Assembly (NCBI RefSeq): GCF_020166345.1
Contig: NZ_JAIUJS010000001.1
Coordinates: forward strand, 1 to 64,000
From: Winogradskyella vincentii
GTDB taxonomy: Bacteria; Bacteroidota; Bacteroidia; Flavobacteriales; Flavobacteriaceae
DNA length: 64,000 nt
Reading direction: 5' to 3'
A model generated the notes under the pieces. The model saw only the letters and a program-made list of their open reading frames with translations, was not told where the DNA came from and searched no databases. Both the position numbers and the translations under genes were made by a program. Positions 1 to 9,302 of the stretch are shown here, piece after piece (position 1 is the stretch's first letter; each line of letters begins with the position of its first letter).

Positions 1-3000
1 ACCGTACCCGTAGCACCTGGTGCCAAGGTCGATGGGCTGATCGCTAGATCTACACTGCCCGTTAACGCATCATCTATTGCTATGTTGCTGATCGTAACGT
101 TACCAGTGTTGTCAACGCTGAACGTATACGTGATCTCGTCACCTAAGCTCGCTCCTGCTGGGCCTACGTCCGTAGTGATCGCTGAGGTCTTGGTCAGTTC
201 AATCGACGGGTTCTGGCTTGCATTTAATGTCTCGCTCTCGTCGCTTTCAACAGTTGCATCACCAGTACCGTCATTATCAGTATCTGCTAAACCCTCACCC
301 TCAGCTGTATTTGTATAAGAACCGTTATCAATGTCGGCCTGCGTCACGGTGTGCGTTGCAGTATAGGTCCATACCTCACCAACTGATAAAATACCGTCAG
401 AATCAATGTCACTTGCCGCAACCAGAGTAGGCCCAGTTGTGGCCGTAGCATCAACCACAGTTGGATTGTATACCGTAACATTACCGTTGTTGGTAAGAGT
501 GATTGTATAATTAATCACCTGGCCTACAGTGTTATATTCCGTTAATGCACCACCATCGATATCAACAAAAGTTTTGACAGTTGATATACTTGGAGTAATA
601 ATACAAGCTGAATTATCCAAAGGATCAACAGTTGCTATATTTGAGCCAAGAGAATAGTCTACTCCTGTTTCAGTAACGAGTCCGTTGCCATCTACTGATG
701 CTGGATCTGGTTCACCAAATTGTCCACCGTCAGTACCTGAAGCAAATGGACTAGCATAAGCCTCGTTAGCATCAGGACAGCTATCGCCATCACTATCAGT
801 ATTTTGAAAATCAAAACTTCCATCACCTCCTGTATCAATAGGTATGGTTACTTCAGTTGCATCGTCAACACCGTTACCATTACCATCGTTAAACACTGCA
901 TCATTACTATCAATAATACCATCTCCATTAGTATCTAAAGATCCGTTTCCAGCTTCATCAATATCATATATACCATCATTGTCAGCATCTAAATCAAAAG
1001 CATCGTCAATTCCGTCACCGTCAGTATCATTACTCAAGCAATATTGCATTTCATAGAACTGTAATTCAACATTAGCAAATTCATTACCAGCTTGATTACC
1101 TACATAAACAGTTATCTGGGTAACAGGTCCAAGAACTTCAACGGCAATACTATTTGAAGGTGCATTTGCATTAGCTGAGGCACCTGTAACCGCAGATTGA
1201 TTCGCAATTGTAAGGTTTGCTCCTACATTAATGTCAGATAAATTAACAGGAATATTTTCTGTACCATTAACTGCAATAAAATCCGCTCTATCGAAATTAT
1301 CAAGTCCACCTACTTTAAAGTTGACATTATAGACAGGCTCTGAGAATATAAATAAATATCTTACGACTTCACCTTCAGGAAATGTTGTACCGTCTGCTAT
1401 TGTGTTTATATACTCACCATCTGGCAAAATTGCTGGATTATTCTGATTTGTTATACCGCTTAAACTCCAAGCAGACCCACCATAGGGCTCATAACCAAAT
1501 GTTACACTAGCTCCACCATAGGAATATACATTAGGTATAAATTCGGCATTGAAATTTGATCCAGTATTATCTGAAAATGTTTGACCTAATGGAATTGGGC
1601 CTGATGAACAATTTTGTTCATAAATATCTAATATACCGTCATTGTCGTTATCTTCATCACATATGTCTGATACACCATCTCCATCTGTGTCAGTATTTCC
1701 TGAGACAAGAGCATTACATGGATCACAAACTGCAGATATGGAAGGATCTGTTACTGCTGCATTGGTACCTATATCATAATCCACTAGTAAGCCTAGATCT
1801 ACTAATCCTGAGGCATCAACGTTTGCGGGATCTGGAAAATTAAACTGCCCATCATCAATTCCTGCGGCGGTCACATTACCATAAGCTTCATTTGCATCAG
1901 GACAACCGTCACCATCACTATCCGTATTTTGATAATCAAAACTTCCATCGGATAAAGTATCAATCGGTGTAATTCCTGTACCTGCTGACCCAGGAATTCC
2001 ACTTGGGCCAACAGCACCGTCAGCCTGACCATCATTGTTTGCATCTGCACCACCTACCTCATCAACGTCATAAATTCCATCATTATCAGAATCTAAATCT
2101 AATATATCTATAACTCCATCACCGTCTGTATCTAGAGGAAGGCAATATTCCATTTCATAGAATTGTACTTCTACATTTTCAAATTCGTTGCCATCTTGGT
2201 TTCCTACATCTATAATTATTTGAGTTACTGGACCATCTACCTGAATTGCTATACTGTTTGACGGAGCATTTGCAATAGCTGATGCAGCAGTAACTGCACT
2301 TTGTCCGTTTATTGTTAGGTTTGCTCCAACATTTATATCTGAAATATTAACCGGAACGTTATCCGTCCCATTAGTTGCAGAGAAATCTGCTCTATCAGCA
2401 TTATCAAGTCCGCCAACTTTAAAATTAACATTGTATACAGGTTCAGAGAAGATAAAATAATAACGTACATGTTCATTTTCTGGGAATGTGGTACCGTCTG
2501 CTATTGTATTTATGTACTCACCATCTGGTAATATTACAGGATTATTCTGATTTGTTATACCACTAAGACTCCAAGCTGAACCTCCATAAGGTTCGTAACC
2601 AAACGTTACACTTGCGCCACCATAGGCATATACATTTGGAATAAATTCTGCATTAAAATTAGAACCAGTGTTATCAGAAAAAGTTTGGCCTAAAGCCAAT
2701 GGACCAGGAGCACAATTAAGATCAACTGTGTCTAAGATACCATCATTATCATCATCTTCATCACAGACATCAGAAATACCATCACCATCTGTGTCTACAT
2801 TTCCGGAAGCAATAGCGTCACAATCATCAACAATAACAATTGTTGCAATTGCTGTATCACAAATTGTATTATCTGCGGTTAAACAAATCTGATATTCTAC
2901 ATTATAAGTTCCCGGAGTCGCGCCAAACGGCACATCAATTGTTCCGTTATTATTAATAACAACTCCTATTAAACCATCATCATTTGAAATATTAATATTA

Positions 3001-6000
3001 TTGTCAATCAATGCATTTGTTGCTGGCGTCGTTCCATTTGCATCGTCATTGGTGAATACGGTAGAAGTTGTTCCACCGGCGCTACCGAACGTAGTTGCAC
3101 TAAAGTCGTCGTTGTTAGCTGTGATTGTTAGAGCAGCACAAGCTGATGTATCTCCCGCATCCGTTACGGCACTATTTGTACCTAATGTATAATCTACTCC
3201 TACTTCTGTTACCAATCCATTTAAAGGATTTATAGATGCCGGATCTGGTTCACCAAATTGACCATCATCTGATCCTGCTGCGGCTCCACTTGAATATGCT
3301 TCATTTGCATCTGGACATCCGTCACCATCACTATCTGTATTTTGGAAATCGTAACTACCATCAGTTAAGGTATCTACAGGTGTTGTTACTTCTGCATCAT
3401 CATCTGTACCATTAGTATTTGTATCGGTAAAACCAGTATCATTACTATCTATTACACCATCATTATTGTCATCTAAAGCACCATTTCCAGCTTCGTCTAC
3501 ATCATATATACCATCATTATCAGAATCTAAATCTAAATAGTCATCAATACCATCACCATCAGTATCTTCACAATCCGAAATAACAAATAATTGAATATTA
3601 TCTATAAAGTTTCCTGTACTTGAAGATCCCGATGCACTAGAAACCCATGCAAAACTTAATCTCGTTGTTGTTTGACCTGCAGGTACTGTATAAGTACCAG
3701 AATGTGCTGTCCAAGATGCATCTGCTGCCGATGTGAAATTTCCTTGGCTTACTAATGCACCAGTGGCATCACCAATTAATAGCGTCATAACATCTTCTAC
3801 GGCACTACCAGCAAAACCGGTTCGTTTACGATGCGCAAAAGACCATTGTAACACATCTCCAGGAGTTGTAACTACATCTTGATATAATCCATCATTTGTT
3901 GTAGCATTAATTTCAGCCCATTGCGTGCCTGTGTAGGCCACGCCACCAACATCATTTCCAGCCGCTTGTGTATTATGCCATACTTCTAAATGGTTGTTTA
4001 CTGCATCTGCACTTTCCCAATTTGGTATGTTAGAAGCATCACCCTTCCATATACCTAAAGTTGGAACTACATCTGTTGAACCATCATTATCTAACAATAA
4101 AATATCATTATCCTCAAAATCTCCATTTAACAATTGAGGGCTATTGAAAGCAGTACATTCAATGGTGTCTAAAATACCATCATTATCATCATCAAGATCT
4201 GCTATATCTTCGATGCCATCACCATCAATATCTCCAAGCACAAATACTCTTACCTGTGCTGTCGTTGTTGAACAATTTGAAGCATTTGGCGGCACCTCAC
4301 ATATTTCGTATATAATTGTATAAATTCCGGGAGGAACTGTTGGATTAACAGTAACTTCTCCGTTAGTTACATTAAGTTGTACTCCTGGATCAGATGTACT
4401 TATTTGGGTAATATCTACTGTTGACGTGGTAGGTACGCTACCATTTAAATCATCATTTGCCAATACATTAGGTACGACTACTCCTCCTACATTTTCCACA
4501 ACTTGACCTACATCATCCGATGCTGTAATTACGGATCCCACAGGATTAACTGTAACTACTGAACTTTGAGTTTCAATTATACAAGGATTATTTAGATGCG
4601 TAATCGTCACCGTATATGTCCCTGAATCTGTTGTTGAAGCAGATGCAATGTTAAACGTAGCGTTATTACCTCCTACTGAAATCGCTCCCGTACCATCATC
4701 AAATGTCCATGCATATTGTAAATTTGCAGATTCGTCTGATACATTTCCAGGTACCGAATAGTCTGGATCAAATGGTGCTGCTAAATCCCAAGCTATTGTG
4801 CTTTGTGCGGTTGCATCTGAGGTTAATGTTAATGCATCTCCACTATTTAAAGTTAAAGTTGCTGGTGGATTTGCACCTGCAATGTATTGTAAAGGCACTA
4901 TCTCGTCTCCTGTTACTCCATCATAACTACCTACAGCTATTGCGCCTCCAGTAGTTACTTGGCCAAATGAATTGAAACCATCTCCATCTAAAATACCATC
5001 ACCACCAGCAGGCACTACATCTGTTCCTCCAGATTCTAGTACATCTGGACACCCATCATTATCACTATCTGTATCTAAATAATCTGCAAAACCATCACCG
5101 TCTGTATCGCAATCTGCAACGGTACCTACAATAAGGTCACCTCCTGGGAACGCAATTTCATCCCAGCCACCGTGTTGTGTTGTATGACCTTCAAATTGCA
5201 TATATCTGAAGGTAATAGGTGCTGTAAAGGTAACATCGGTTGCAGTGTCGGTACCAAAAGGTACTACTAAGGTTGATTGTCCATTAGTAACAGCATTTAA
5301 ATATCCCACACCACCGTTTTGTCCATCGGTATTAGCATCGCCAGAAGGATCTGTACTATCATAACTTACATATACTTGTACAGGGGTATCCTCACCACTA
5401 GTATTTGCCTGCAGTGTAATTACCGTACCGGCAGCCACCTCTTGCCCTAGATTAATCTCCATGAAATCATCTACGTGCATCCTTAACGGCTGTGGTGTCC
5501 CATCAATTATATTTCTTGGATCATCAGCAGCATATGGAGGACTTGTTGTTAAAGCAAAACTAGGATCGTAATGCGCAGCGCGTCCACCTGTTTTTGTTTG
5601 TGCATAACCATGAACTGCCGTAGCCGTAAATGGCTGTGGTCTTGGAATACCACATTCTTCTAAATCTAAAATACCATCATTATCATCATCTTGATCGTCA
5701 CGATCTTGAACACCGTCATTATCGATATCAAAGAAACATTCTTGGATGGTTCTTGTATAGTCAGAACCAAGAGCATCTAATCCAAATTTTTTGCCATCAT
5801 CTCCGGCATGAACATATTGCACATATTCAAAGAAAAATGGAACTGCTACAATAAACTCATCATTTGCATTTAAATCAGCCGATGTTATGGCTGCAACTTG
5901 TATATAATTTACACCATCTCTTGAAGCAAGTAAATTTACCGTTAGGTCATTCTCAAATTTAGAAAAATAGGTTGTCAGTGTTGAACCTCCTGGAGAGAGT

Positions 6001-7124
6001 CCCGCCATTTGAAAGATAGCACCGTCATTAATTAGTTGAAAATCACCAGTTCCACTCCCATCTGATCCACCGAGTGCTTCATCATCACAATCTGTCTCTG
6101 TTGTTCCTGATATTACACAGGTAAGTGCATCGAATGCATTATAAGTCCCAGATTCTGTTGCATTCACTATATAAGATCCTGAAGGACAGGTTATATCACT
6201 ACACTCGCTAGGAGCGGTCATTATATTAGTATCTGTTATACTACAACCTCCGTCTGCAGAAAAATTAGCTGTTAGTGAAATAGCAGACCCATCTGCTGTA
6301 AATACCACGTCTTGAAACGTATAGGAAGTCGCTCCAATAGATCCAACCGGAACCGAAACATTTGCACTACCCGACAAGTTTAGTGTACCTGTTGTTTTTG
6401 GGTTAGCATATGTTACAGTGATATCTGCAGTAAATGTATCATCTCCTGTATATTCTGGTGTTCCGTTATCAGAACATGCTTGTACATCGGATTCATCTAT
6501 GGCAGTAATATCACAATTTAAAGATAAATCTACGCCATCTATAAAATTCCAAGTTTTATCACAAGTCCCAGTAGACTTTATTTCTAAAAGAAAAGAACCT
6601 GAAGTAGAAGGCGTAAACGTAAATCTTGGACGCGTCCATACATCTTCTGAAGCCGGTGCCGCAAAGGTACCAATTACAGATCCATCTAAAAGCACTTCTA
6701 ACCCTGGTGTACAAGGAGTTTCACCATTATCTGTTTCTATTAAATAATCTAAGGAAAAAGAATATAATTCTCCACCAACAACCGTTACATTTTGAGTAAT
6801 TCCTTCAACGGTTGTACCACTGTCAACCGTCAACCCTATATAACAAGTGCCATCTGGTGAAGCACCTCTGTTTTGATTACTACCATCCCATCTTCTTTCT
6901 ACCGATGTAGATAAATCTGGCGCTCCAATTTTACCCCAACTATCTGGAGCAAGATCTTCTGTAGAATCTGTAGCTGTACAATCTACACTAGATTCTAATA
7001 AACCTGGATTGGTTATTAAATTTTGTGCTGTTAAACCTTGTGACCCTATTAGGGTTAAAATCCCAAATAGTGTTGCGATTTTGATTTGCTTTAGAGAAAA
7101 CATGAATCGGGTAAAGATTTTCAT
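1..7124 (-). CDS. Giant secreted surface protein with TSP3-like calcium repeats and DUF11 repeats (3' end beyond window)
   Basis: Open on the minus strand from ATG at 7124 to the left edge, about 2374 codons with no stop; I checked the frame at several points and it is continuous. The N-terminus (MKIFTRFMF...LTLIGSQGLTAQ) is a signal peptide, followed by NLITNPGLLES, a carbohydrate-binding-like opening. Blocks of the D-x-D-x-D-G-D/I type (for example DDDNDGILDLEE near 5650-5735, others near 5020-5130, 4160-4245, 3395-3575, 2725-2815, 2005-2135, 1615-1710 and 890-1040) resemble thrombospondin type 3 calcium-binding repeats. A module of about 190 residues occurs twice (2143-2714 and 1039-1610). 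The last ~200 visible residues are DUF11-like (NYTITLTNNGNVTV, ITYTFSVDNTGNVTI). Size and domains suit an adhesin exported by the type 9 system, but the C-terminal sorting domain would lie outside the window, so that is inference. Confidence 0.85.
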   Translation of the reverse strand, partial: MKIFTRFMFSLKQIKIATLFGILTLIGSQGLTAQNLITNPGLLESSVDCTATDSTEDLAPDSWGKIGAPDLSTSVERRWDGSNQNRGASPDGTCYIGLTVDSGTTVEGITQNVTVVGGELYSFSLDYLIETDNGETPCTPGLEVLLDGSVIGTFAAPASEDVWTRPRFTFTPSTSGSFLLEIKSTGTCDKTWNFIDGVDLSLNCDITAIDESDVQACSDNGTPEYTGDDTFTADITVTYANPKTTGTLNLSGSANVSVPVGSIGATSYTFQDVVFTADGSAISLTANFSADGGCSITDTNIMTAPSECSDITCPSGSYIVNATESGTYNAFDALTCVISGTTETDCDDEALGGSDGSGTGDFQLINDGAIFQMAGLSPGGSTLTTYFSKFENDLTVNLLASRDGVNYIQVAAITSADLNANDEFIVAVPFFFEYVQYVHAGDDGKKFGLDALGSDYTRTIQECFFDIDNDGVQDRDDQDDDNDGILDLEECGIPRPQPFTATAVHGYAQTKTGGRAAHYDPSFALTTSPPYAADDPRNIIDGTPQPLRMHVDDFMEINLGQEVAAGTVITLQANTSGEDTPVQVYVSYDSTDPSGDANTDGQNGGVGYLNAVTNGQSTLVVPFGTDTATDVTFTAPITFRYMQFEGHTTQHGGWDEIAFPGGDLIVGTVADCDTDGDGFADYLDTDSDNDGCPDVLESGGTDVVPAGGDGILDGDGFNSFGQVTTGGAIAVGSYDGVTGDEIVPLQYIAGANPPATLTLNSGDALTLTSDATAQSTIAWDLAAPFDPDYSVPGNVSDESANLQYAWTFDDGTGAISVGGNNATFNIASASTTDSGTYTVTITHLNNPCIIETQSSVVTVNPVGSVITASDDVGQVVENVGGVVVPNVLANDDLNGSVPTTSTVDITQISTSDPGVQLNVTNGEVTVNPTVPPGIYTIIYEICEVPPNASNCSTTTAQVRVFVLGDIDGDGIEDIADLDDDNDGILDTIECTAFNSPQLLNGDFEDNDILLLDNDGSTDVVPTLGIWKGDASNIPNWESADAVNNHLEVWHNTQAAGNDVGGVAYTGTQWAEINATTNDGLYQDVVTTPGDVLQWSFAHRKRTGFAGSAVEDVMTLLIGDATGALVSQGNFTSAADASWTAHSGTYTVPAGQTTTRLSFAWVSSASGSSSTGNFIDNIQLFVISDCEDTDGDGIDDYLDLDSDNDGIYDVDEAGNGALDDNNDGVIDSNDTGFTDTNTNGTDDDAEVTTPVDTLTDGSYDFQNTDSDGDGCPDANEAYSSGAAAGSDDGQFGEPDPASINPLNGLVTEVGVDYTLGTNSAVTDAGDTSACAALTITANNDDFSATTFGSAGGTTSTVFTNDDANGTTPATNALIDNNINISNDDGLIGVVINNNGTIDVPFGATPGTYNVEYQICLTADNTICDTAIATIVIVDDCDAIASGNVDTDGDGISDVCDEDDDNDGILDTVDLNCAPGPLALGQTFSDNTGSNFNAEFIPNVYAYGGASVTFGYEPYGGSAWSLSGITNQNNPVILPDGEYINTIADGTTFPENEHVRYYFIFSEPVYNVNFKVGGLDNADRADFSATNGTDNVPVNISDINVGANLTINGQSAVTAASAIANAPSNSIAIQVDGPVTQIIIDVGNQDGNEFENVEVQFYEMEYCLPLDTDGDGVIDILDLDSDNDGIYDVDEVGGADANNDGQADGAVGPSGIPGSAGTGITPIDTLSDGSFDYQNTDSDGDGCPDANEAYGNVTAAGIDDGQFNFPDPANVDASGLVDLGLLVDYDIGTNAAVTDPSISAVCDPCNALVSGNTDTDGDGVSDICDEDNDNDGILDIYEQNCSSGPIPLGQTFSDNTGSNFNAEFIPNVYSYGGASVTFGYEPYGGSAWSLSGITNQNNPAILPDGEYINTIADGTTFPEGEVVRYLFIFSEPVYNVNFKVGGLDNFDRADFIAVNGTENIPVNLSDINVGANLTIANQSAVTGASANANAPSNSIAVEVLGPVTQITVYVGNQAGNEFANVELQFYEMQYCLSNDTDGDGIDDAFDLDADNDGIYDIDEAGNGSLDTNGDGIIDSNDAVFNDGNGNGVDDATEVTIPIDTGGDGSFDFQNTDSDGDSCPDANEAYASPFASGTDGGQFGEPDPASVDGNGLVTETGVDYSLGSNIATVDPLDNSACIITPSISTVKTFVDIDGGALTEYNTVGQVINYTITLTNNGNVTVYNPTVVDATATTGPTLVAASDIDSDGILSVGEVWTYTATHTVTQADIDNGSYTNTAEGEGLADTDNDGTGDATVESDESETLNASQNPSIELTKTSAITTDVGPAGASLGDEITYTFSVDNTGNVTISNIAIDDALTGSVDLAISPSTLAPGATGT
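1039..1610 (-). repeat. Internal module copy B of the giant surface protein
   Basis: Second copy of the module at 2143-2714, beginning LGQTFSDNTGSNFNAEF and ending FYEMQYCL. It is flanked on both sides by TSP3-like repeats, so the duplicated unit is probably the whole cassette of TSP3 plus module. Confidence 0.85.
2143..2714 (-). repeat. Internal module copy A of the giant surface protein
   Basis: Encodes a ~190-residue module beginning LGQTFSDNTGSNFNAEF and ending FYEMEYCL. It lies exactly 1104 bp from copy B, and the same offset holds at both ends of the module, so there is no net indel. Protein identity is very high while many third codon positions differ, which points to an older duplication held under selection. 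Confidence 0.85.
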
Positions 7125-7683
7125 ATTACTGTTGGTTGTTATGTTCTTTTGAAATGTATTGTGTATACCGCGTAACGGTAAATGTCTTAACGATCTATGT
7201 GTAGAAACGATTGGGGTAATTTTTTTCATATTTCTATGCGGTTGATGTATTTTTCATAGCAATATTATCGATATAAATTTTATCGATAATACGCAAATAT
7301 ATTCGTTTAAATGCAAAATACAAATATTTCAGTAAGAAAAATTGCATTAAATATTTTAACATTTTTCTTTTTTAAAAGAAATCGTTATTAAATATAAGTC
7401 GCTAAAAAACAGAAAATTACTACTAAAGGCCACTAGAGCAACGTCTCAATCCACAAAAGAAGATGTAGGTAATTAAAGTTGTTATTTTGGGACAAATATT
7501 TAAGGTAAATTTCAATTTGTTAAAAATACTTTAAAAATTCAAGGGCAAAGTAACCTATGATTACGGGATTTCCGTAAATATTCGTTGAAATTATAAATTA
7601 AACGGTTGAAATACAGGTTTTTCTTCTCTTACACAATTCCCAAGATTTATCCTTTTAAACGAAATAAAACCGGATGAAACTAT
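7125..7683. other. AT-rich intergenic region between the divergent surface-protein gene and prfC
   Basis: No gene is seen in these 560 bases. They separate two divergent genes and must hold both promoters. TACATTTC on the minus strand (7151-7158) is a 7/8 match to the Bacteroidota -7 element TAnnTTTG and could serve the surface gene. A perfect inverted repeat lies at 7264-7290. The rest is AT-rich and has no feature I can support. Confidence 0.5.
7264..7290. promoter_or_regulatory. Perfect 10-bp inverted repeat, possible operator
   Basis: ATTATCGATA, a 7-base spacer (TAAATTT), then TATCGATAAT. The dyad lies about 140 bp upstream of the giant surface-protein gene and about 420 bp upstream of prfC. 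No T-tract or GC-rich stem suggests termination, so a protein-binding site for control of the surface gene is the more likely reading. This is inference. Confidence 0.4.
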
Positions 7684-7712: not shown

Positions 7713-9302
7713 ATGAGTTTTCAATCTGAAATTAATAGACGTCGAACTTTTGGGATAATTTCTCACCCAGATGCTGGTAAAACTACACTAACGGAAAAAC
7801 TGCTGTTATTCGGTGGTGCCATCCAAGAAGCGGGTGCCGTAAAAAGTAACAAAATAAAGAAGGGGGCAACCAGTGATTTTATGGAGATTGAGCGCCAACG
7901 TGGTATCTCTGTGGCTACTTCAGTTTTGGCTTTTGAATATAACGGTATAAAGATTAATATTTTAGATACTCCAGGTCACAAAGATTTTGCAGAAGACACA
8001 TTTAGAACTTTAACCGCGGTAGATAGTGTCATAGTAGTCATAGATGTTGCAAAAGGGGTTGAGGAACAAACTGAAAAATTGGTTGAAGTTTGCAGAATGC
8101 GGAATATCCCGATGATTGTTTTTATTAATAAGCTAGACCGTGAGGGAAAAGATGCCTTTGACCTTTTAGATGAAGTAGAACAGAAATTAGGTCTGAGGGT
8201 GACACCTCTAAGTTTCCCTATTGGTATGGGATACGACTTTAAGGGTATCTATAATATTTGGGAAAAGAATATCAATCTTTTTACAGACGACAGCAAACAA
8301 CATATTAACGATACTTTAGAAATCTCTGATTTAAAATCTGAAGCGCTGGAAAAGCTAGTAGGTGAATCTGCCGCAAAGACTTTGCGTGAAGAGGTGGAAT
8401 TGGTTGAAGGTATTTATCCTGAATTTAACAAGGACGACTATCTCAATGGCGATTTGCAACCCGTATTCTTTGGTTCTGCCTTAAATAATTTTGGTGTAAG
8501 GGAATTACTTGATTGTTTTGTTGAGATTGCACCTAAACCTAGACCAAAGCATAGTGAGGAACGATTGGTAAAACCAGACGAAAATAAATTTACTGGTTTT
8601 GTTTTTAAAATACATGCCAATATGGATCCAAACCATAGAAATCGTTTGGCCTTTGTAAAGATTGTCTCGGGTGAGTTTAAGCGTAATACACCTTATTTAC
8701 ATGTAAGACATAATAAGAAATTGAAATTCTCAAGTCCTAATGCTTTTTTTGCAGAGAAAAAAGAGATTGTAGATATCTCCTACCCTGGTGATATAGTTGG
8801 TTTACAAGACACCGGAAATTTTAAAATTGGTGATACCCTTACAGAAGGTGAGATAATTAACTATAAGGGAATCCCGAGTTTTTCACCAGAACATTTTAGA
8901 TATATTAATAACGCTGATCCTATGAAGGCAAAGCAATTATTTAAAGGAATTGATCAGCTTATGGATGAAGGTGTAGCGCAGTTGTTCACACTAGATTATA
9001 ATGGTAGAAAAGTTATTGGTACCGTTGGCGCGTTACAATATGAAGTAATTCAATATAGGTTAGAACACGAGTATGGTGCAAAATGTACATACGAAAACCT
9101 CAATGTTCATAAAGCCTGTTGGGTGCAAACCAATGACGAAAAAAGTGAGGAGTTTAAAGAGTTCTTAAGAGTTAAGCAACGGTATTTAGCAAAAGATAAA
9201 CAAGGTCAATTGGTATTTTTAGCAGACTCTATGTTCTCATTACAGATGACACAGCAGAAATACCCGAGTATTACTTTCCATATGACTTCTGAATTTGACT
9301 AA
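7713..9302 (+). CDS. prfC: Peptide chain release factor 3 (RF3)
   Basis: A 529-residue translational GTPase that removes RF1/RF2 from the ribosome after peptide release. The GTPase motifs are clear: P-loop SHPDAGKTTLTEK (residues 17-29), the switch II motif DTPGH, and NKLD for guanine recognition. An EF-Tu-like domain 2 and the RF3-specific C-terminal domain follow, and the length equals the family norm of about 525-530. It stands alone on the plus strand, facing away from the surface-protein gene, with its own TAnnTTTG promoter element upstream. Confidence 0.97.
   Translation: MSFQSEINRRRTFGIISHPDAGKTTLTEKLLLFGGAIQEAGAVKSNKIKKGATSDFMEIERQRGISVATSVLAFEYNGIKINILDTPGHKDFAEDTFRTLTAVDSVIVVIDVAKGVEEQTEKLVEVCRMRNIPMIVFINKLDREGKDAFDLLDEVEQKLGLRVTPLSFPIGMGYDFKGIYNIWEKNINLFTDDSKQHINDTLEISDLKSEALEKLVGESAAKTLREEVELVEGIYPEFNKDDYLNGDLQPVFFGSALNNFGVRELLDCFVEIAPKPRPKHSEERLVKPDENKFTGFVFKIHANMDPNHRNRLAFVKIVSGEFKRNTPYLHVRHNKKLKFSSPNAFFAEKKEIVDISYPGDIVGLQDTGNFKIGDTLTEGEIINYKGIPSFSPEHFRYINNADPMKAKQLFKGIDQLMDEGVAQLFTLDYNGRKVIGTVGALQYEVIQYRLEHEYGAKCTYENLNVHKACWVQTNDEKSEEFKEFLRVKQRYLAKDKQGQLVFLADSMFSLQMTQQKYPSITFHMTSEFD

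Follow-up and report, generated by a model that had tools for sequence, protein, structure and literature searches.

The window, a stretch of 64,000 nucleotides, covers bases 1-64000 of contig C11 in a 64-contig, 3.29 Mb assembly whose closest named relatives are Winogradskyella, and it opens inside a giant gene on the reverse strand. The frame (3..7229, -) runs for 2,409 codons from an ATG at 7229, or for 2,374 codons if counted from the ATG at 7124, and is still open at base 1. Because the window edge is also the end of C11, the truncation of the frame is that of the contig. A sequence-only reading of the window had proposed a secreted protein of at least 2,374 codons, and the frame reaches that length from either start. 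The features of the locus are listed below.

3..7229, reverse strand: 5′ part of the giant adhesin gene (open reading frame, contig edge, comparison with relatives)
6..212, reverse strand: DUF7507 repeat truncated at the contig edge, 57.6 bits (profile search)
276..593, reverse strand: DUF7507 (CLIPPER_2) repeat, 72.2 bits (profile search)
918..1703, reverse strand: module A copy 2, 80% identical protein (self-comparison)
2025..2807, reverse strand: module A copy 1, each end formed by a D-rich TSP3-like stretch (alignment, predicted CBM4-like jelly roll)
6390..7037, reverse strand: N-terminal beta-rich head region (comparison with relatives)
7026..7124, reverse strand: putative signal peptide MKIFTRF...GLTA, counted from the ATG at 7124 (by eye)
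7263..7291, reverse strand: perfect inverted repeat with 11-base arms and a 7-base loop, just past the promoter-like site
7294..7324, reverse strand: promoter-like site TTTG-N19-TATATTTG (pattern match)
7713..9302, forward strand: divergent prfC-like gene, the locus marker in relatives (open reading frame, synteny)

The giant gene starts at one of the two ATGs, 7229 or 7124. Eleven of 13 related frames open with M[KE]I[STF]TRF, resembling the ATG at 7124, a comparison that is partly circular because the 13 frames came from a loose motif of that shape. A leader common to relatives, ...ACATCAAC...AATATG, precedes the ATG at 7229 when compared by eye. The putative N-terminal Sec signal peptide, recognized by eye only, is MKIFTRFMFSLKQIKIATLFGILTLIGSQGLTA. 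Upstream, the site at 7294..7324 resembles a Bacteroidota-type promoter, and TTTG-N17..21-TAnnTTTG was found upstream of 9 of the 13 related frames; the inverted repeat recurs at a like place only in L051 among the relatives, there with 9-base arms. By eye, TTTATCG-like repeats flank the -7 box in the window (7263-7324) and in several of L050-L057, L070 and G011, and a common stretch like AGTTGATTAATAGC..ATCTCTTCA lies farther upstream in several species, both being possible regulator sites. The divergent gene is presumably prfC-like. In two Winogradskyella MAGs (L053:5344-8035 and L054:5336-8041), two genes lie between the prfC-like and giant genes, and by eye their sequences resemble a histidine kinase and a response regulator.

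Aspartate makes up 12% of the window part of the protein, and the many D-rich calcium-type repeats reported from the sequence alone were confirmed by 22 DxDxDGxxD motifs (mean 0.14 and maximum 2 over 200 shuffles). Their TSP3 label stood at the level of these motifs but not at that of the profile, with Pfam TSP_3 in the window part scoring 24.4 bits, just below the curated cut-off of 25. The duplicated modules described from the sequence were also recovered, as 765 aligned columns with 77% DNA identity between window positions 2059-2822 and 955-1718. The last ~200 codons of the window part consist of DUF7507 repeats (99.6 bits, E = 1.2e-28, cut-off 27; 215.4 bits in the part on contig C4, described below). 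Repeats are thus present where terminal DUF11 repeats had been expected, but their best family is DUF7507, the sister family of DUF11: Pfam DUF11 fell below its cut-off (22.1 versus 24.6), while an NCBIfam DUF11-type repeat exceeded its own (33.1 versus 24). For the N-terminal head, no match covering 60% of the head was found in the frames of L050-L108, and a single-sequence fold (pLDDT 45) was too poor for use.

Aligned with 29 other copies, module A was modeled as a jelly roll (pLDDT 83.9). Its best VIA-align match was a CBM4-2 variant (Z 10.3, 147 residues, rmsd 3.3, ~7% identity), followed closely by streptococcal GbpC, antigen I/II regions and others (Z 8-9). Foldseek TM-scores were low (0.2-0.3 on the query), and comparing the module sequence with solved structures gave only weak matches (7 sequences, E 0.03-0.09, mostly antibody chains). 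The CBM4-like jelly rolls predicted for module A perhaps bind polysaccharide, which is a guess given the low identity, the near-equal scores of GbpC and antigen I/II and the low TM-scores.

Judging from domain content and gene order, the missing 3′ end of the gene almost certainly lies on another contig of this genome, C4, as its first 1,883 bases. This contig opens with a 5′-open frame of 626 codons that carries four DUF7507 repeats, DUF11 and then a C-terminal type B sorting domain (CHU_C, 105.3 bits, cut-off 27; TIGR04131, 49.4 bits, cut-off 35). Downstream lie PorP at C4:1917-2843 (PF11751, 299 bits; TIGR03519, 275 bits) and a PorE-like frame at C4:2848-4830, followed by presumed idi and manA genes. 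All six DUF7507 matches of the genome at E <= 0.001 fall at these two contig ends, two at the C11 edge and four at the C4 start. The order prfC-like, giant, PorP, PorE-like, manA-like, with neighbors named by likeness, is unbroken in L051, G011 and L124. In L051 (Winogradskyella sp. HKST-UBA93), a single 2,444-codon frame sits between the prfC-like gene and PorP, with an OmpA-like protein, an idi-like gene and a manA-like gene after PorP; residues 369-1578 of its protein correspond to the window part (73%) and residues 1799-2444 to the C4 part (61%). The giant frame has 3,949 codons in the complete genome G011 and 1,869 in G098 (L124). In G016 (L123; 3,976 codons) the order is visible up to the PorE-like (OmpA-like) gene, and in G169 (L122) it is present with a masked stretch inside the giant gene.

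The join of C11 to C4 is thereby very likely settled, by synteny and not by a sequence read. It is very improbable that the C4 fragment belongs to a different gene and that the window gene ends otherwise. The junction is uncovered by sequence, and a second giant gene of this genome, on contig C33, likewise runs off a contig end; the C33 gene, however, ends in other repeats (HYR-like by eye), the DUF7507 matches are confined to the ends of C11 and C4, and the neighbors on C4 (PorP, PorE-like, manA-like) and on C11 (prfC-like) lie on either side of a single gene in both L051 and G011. Provided that the contigs join, the sorting domain predicted to lie beyond the left edge is the TIGR04131 match on C4, and both objections raised in advance, a stop codon or frameshift just past the edge and the lack of a sorting domain, are answered. 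The suggestion that the protein is a type 9 substrate is therefore upheld by the type B domain at the C4 end, the adjoining PorP and the unbroken order in relatives.

The C33 frame (L037:6106-14268) has 2,721 codons and is 50% identical to the window protein across residues 865-1294 of the latter, and its GC3 shows no rise at the edge. Contig breaks upstream of PorP were frequent but not general. Counting as drafts all genomes of 10 or more contigs, a first batch of PorP-upstream stretches had a contig end 1.1-8.0 kb upstream of PorP in nine of ten drafts, with the full 20 kb obtained from the tenth (L144), and drafts of a second batch were unbroken over the full stretch asked for. The DUF7507/DUF11 array, inside which the assembly broke, probably has a greater length in the cell than was assembled; the end of a giant gene can thus be lost at a contig break within its repeats.

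The array resembles the isopeptide stalk adhesins of the CLIPPER and CLIPPER_2 kind, with tandem DUF7507/DUF11 units near the C terminus and Lys, Asp and Asn in full units (PMC12617251). The same source gives these three residues as the places of intramolecular isopeptide bonds in the DUF7507/CLIPPER_2 family. All three are kept in the full DUF7507 units N/2179, C/127 and C/269 (by eye, 30-row alignment), and unit C/127 has a Lys-Asp spacing of 40, as in the example given in PMC12617251. Units N/2307 and C/2 are cut by the contig edges, and the last unit, the DUF11-type C/423, does not keep the Asp. In this protein, putative isopeptide bonds of the DUF7507 units would form at these residues.

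We consider it likely, with a probability of roughly 85%, that the window holds the 5′ part of a giant fibrillar T9SS type B adhesin of a Winogradskyella-type flavobacterium, statically held and with its end on C4. Over both contigs the adhesin has at least 3,035 residues, and as a protein it belongs to an already known kind. From the anatomy and gene order observed here, we infer the following roles in export, anchoring and binding. The Sec signal peptide would take the adhesin to the periplasm, and the type B C-terminal domain on C4 would pass it to the T9SS translocon and the neighboring PorP. The PorE-like OmpA/PD40 protein would tie PorP to peptidoglycan, leaving the adhesin fixed in place and not moved along a gliding track. 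The outer part would consist of the calcium-type D-rich linkers and the CBM4-like jelly rolls, with the DUF7507/DUF11 array as a stalk nearer to the C terminus.

The genome encodes a T9SS (SprA, 2,770 bits), and in PMC12618676 the carrier of a type B substrate is its cognate PorP. PorP adjoins the type B frame on C4, and from this adjacency the two would form a cognate pair. This PorP lacks a Cys-X-Cys tail (0 cysteines after residue 25, ending in PRFF), as do its counterparts in six relatives. The genome has seven PorP-family matches, and in three of the six others a cysteine pair lies close to the end. For the PorE-like protein, the scores are 322 bits for T9SS_PorE (cut-off 600) and 391 for CHU_0125_OmpA (cut-off 620), with PD40 and OmpA domains above their cut-offs and TPR matches under the Pfam cut-off. 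In PMC12618676, a Flavobacterium johnsoniae substrate whose operon includes a PorE homolog was static, and the operons of moving type B substrates are without a PorE-like gene.

An adhesin moved along the gliding track like SprB is quite unlikely here. The gliding machinery marker GldJ (920 bits) places such machinery in the genome, and movement is seen with type B domains from SprB, from Fjoh_4750 and in a few Fjoh_1123 fusions (PMC12618676). On the other hand, the paired PorP has no Cys-X-Cys tail, the gene after it is of the PorE-like kind that operons of moving substrates lack, and another PorP of the genome, in L031 beside a different type B frame, does carry such a tail (...NCACTRG...). 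SprF needs a C-terminal Cys-X-Cys for normal track attachment, and cysteine-free SprF still gave short sporadic movements (PMC12635249); a lack of cysteines speaks solely against the known route of track attachment. With a cysteine-free tail on PorP and a PorE-like gene following, a fixed adhesin is the better reading, and the gliding half of the earlier 'gliding or biofilm' proposal is not favored.

A close counterpart in layout is the static set Fjoh_3952 / 3951 / 3950 of F. johnsoniae, in which a type B substrate, a cognate PorP-like shuttle and a PorE-like gene adjoin (PMC12618676), a likeness that rests on layout and domains and not on sequence comparison. PG1035-PorP-PorE of Porphyromonas gingivalis, for which PMC9143113 proposes type B anchoring through PorP and PorE, is also similar; the present case differs in its giant, repeat-bearing substrate and in the seven PorP-family matches of the genome. 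SprB-SprF likewise combines a giant type B adhesin with a PorP/SprF-family carrier, but in our case the carrier has no Cys-X-Cys tail, a PorE-like gene is present and no SprB-repeat match was listed for the window part or the C4 part. The prfC-like/giant/PorP/PorE-like locus is a well-marked place for testing the static-anchor model of type B adhesins.

The base composition of the giant gene changes along its length. GC3 is 0.1-0.3 over most of the window gene and rises to 0.60 in the last windows before the edge, with 0.18 in the parts outside DUF7507 repeats and 0.54 in the edge-cut repeat (6..212). The C4 frame begins at 0.56, falls to 0.14 within ~50 codons and rises again to 0.50 near codon 150. 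For comparison, the mean over eight other window genes is 0.245 (sd 0.06), with a maximum of 0.40 among 237 windows. Relatives have similar patches: in L051 a mid-gene patch of 0.6-0.7 with sharp edges, in G011 a GC3 of about 0.5 over some 1,500 codons, and in G126 an alternation between about 0.1 and 0.5-0.6 along a frame that has 8,558 codons or more.

For a sample taken without looking at composition, we sought PorP homologs in 397 genomes of the family and extracted 40 upstream stretches. In this sample and in an earlier one of related loci, arrays were identified by self-alignment (units of >=85% identity, arrays of >=80 codons, with amino-acid correction), and their expected GC3 was derived from their amino-acid make-up combined with codon usage elsewhere in that gene. 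We analyzed 38 of the 40 regions, some frames being fragments from draft contigs; L149 was left out as the continuation of the G126 gene, whose genome was first found through GC-rich DNA, and L129 as having no 250-codon frame ending near PorP. Low rows were retained (L142, and two small L126 arrays, all below expectation). Genomes found by a DNA search with the GC-rich patch (G011, G126, G169 and G098) are illustrations outside the counts, except that L148, another PorP locus of G126 and free of arrays, is among the 38.

Arrays were present in 20 of the 38 frames, representing 20 genes from 18 genomes of 18 genera, and array GC3 exceeded expectation in 19 of these genes (mean +0.106, Wilcoxon 1.9e-5), with fourfold sites in agreement (19/20). 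The excess was universal for arrays of at least five copies (16/16 genes, +0.123) and of at least eight (11/11, +0.146), and across 60 arrays it correlated with copy number (rho 0.49, p = 7e-5, kinship of genes uncorrected). Sham arrays made from random segments of 13 array-free genes had an excess of -0.006 (sd 0.025), and only 0.3% of them surpassed +0.08, versus 79% of real arrays with >=5 copies. Both C- and G-ending codons were elevated (fourfold C in 10/16 and G in 14/16), and GC1 and GC2 were up too. Ten array stretches compared with Pfam were of Big_9/cadherin, TSP3, CshA and SdrD_B kinds, with no clear family for L125. DUF7507 arrays were found in L156, L135 and L146, and DUF7507 units inside arrays were GC-richer than those outside in three of three genes.

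An earlier sample of related loci, mostly with 2-5 copies, gave a smaller rise (16/20 genes, +0.028, p = 0.024) that was not significant at fourfold sites (11/20). Among arrays called by Tandem Repeats Finder in that sample, many of them low in copies, GC3 did not rise in general (mean +0.009, p = 0.67, from the 44 arrays for which both sides had values), including those with >=90% match (14 arrays, +0.031, p = 0.24). Outside the family, an underpowered replicate drew on 20 genes, from 20 genera, chosen by hand among the listed top Big_9 matches before their composition was seen. Of the 20 loci, all examined, only three contained arrays, all of four copies or fewer, and two of the three rose on average: in L170 (background ~0.62) 7/7 blocks were above expectation, and the single block of L172 was below.

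Several readings could account for the rise. GC-biased gene conversion between near-identical tandem units fits the copy-number dependence, and we give it less than an even chance. In its favor, all but one of the PorP-picked genes with arrays lay above expectation, the excess grew with copies and was rare in sham segments, C- and G-ending codons rose together and several domain families showed the effect. In addition, units ~80% identical in protein have a GC3 of 0.17 in L123 and 0.5 in G011, and rises also start from backgrounds of 0.38-0.43 and, in L170, from an already GC-rich one. However, L150 (23 copies, +0.02), L134, L135 and L123 hardly respond, the earlier sample was weaker with a null Tandem Repeats Finder count, and GC1 and GC2 increase too, which could reflect amino-acid make-up. 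Nor did the spectrum of singleton synonymous changes in 20 arrays support a fixation bias to G/C: the equilibrium GC3 was 0.36 versus a standing value, depressed by strictly conserved columns, of 0.29, and hence not lower (bootstrap 95% of the difference, 0.007 to 0.138). Smaller versions had passed one array and then four, the latter with an equilibrium of 0.24 versus a standing 0.42. It is possible, short of probable, that homogenized arrays in flavobacterial T9SS adhesin genes are strong GC-biased conversion sites, at which GC3 would go from 0.1-0.2 to 0.3-0.6 in one frame.

The sharp block edges of G126, where GC3 passes from about 0.1 to 0.6 and back, would also suit foreign DNA from a GC-rich donor that was then amplified, an unlikely origin considering the nearest relatives of the repeats. 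GC-rich units of G011 are nearest to AT-rich units of L123 (about 80%), those of L051 to the second unit on C4 (GC3 0.27; 77%) and those of G126 to L124 units and to its own AT-rich units. Since units of the same class can be AT-rich in one species yet GC-rich in another, the repeats are unlikely to share one foreign source; moreover, the effect recurs across many genera and domain families, and the GC-rich patch matched as DNA in 6 of the 397 family genomes, its own included, in a search of the family only. Codon-use selection in very long repetitive messages, through expression or tRNA balance, seems rather doubtful and is only partly excluded. In the window's genome, rpoB/rpoC, taken as highly expressed, differ from 11 other genes in the same direction as the arrays for twofold C-ending codons (0.33 versus 0.243) and G-ending Lys/Glu/Gln codons (0.359 versus 0.296), but in the opposite direction at fourfold sites (C, 0.033 versus 0.114; G, 0.066 versus 0.100). 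Nor do the data fit codons being evened out towards one half, since genes with backgrounds of 0.38-0.43 still reach 0.51-0.58, beyond the even point.

GC-biased gene conversion in bacteria is argued for in PMC4450053, and has not been observed according to PMC8153448. The pattern described here resembles the former in its GC gain where recombination is expected, but differs in arising between tandem units of a single gene; neither tandem nor paralog occurs as a word in the main text of PMC4450053. Among the titles listed from the open-license literature, we found none on biased conversion in bacterial intragenic tandem repeats. If conversion is the cause, flanking and diverged units of the same gene would act as a built-in control, and such genes would provide a natural, replicated within-gene assay of a process disputed in bacteria. 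An effect that grows with copy number inside single genes would make the question directly testable, and the pattern could help to test a disputed idea on the evolution of bacterial DNA composition.

Several loci of the survey have features of their own. In G126 (L120, L121 and L149), the prfC-linked giant gene seems to cross the start of a single-contig record, and including the stretch up to PorP it would span ~10,600 codons, an estimate from coordinates whose pieces were not read as one. At a contig edge upstream of PorP in G173 (L140:1-1652), two 70-codon windows have a GC3 of 0.81 and 0.71, versus ~0.3 later. Finally, G140 has two equal-scoring PorP copies ~15 kb apart (G140:C1:1204899-1205822 and 1219997-1220920; L155 and L156), each preceded by a giant frame, the two frames sharing their C-terminal end, which is probably a recent operon duplication.
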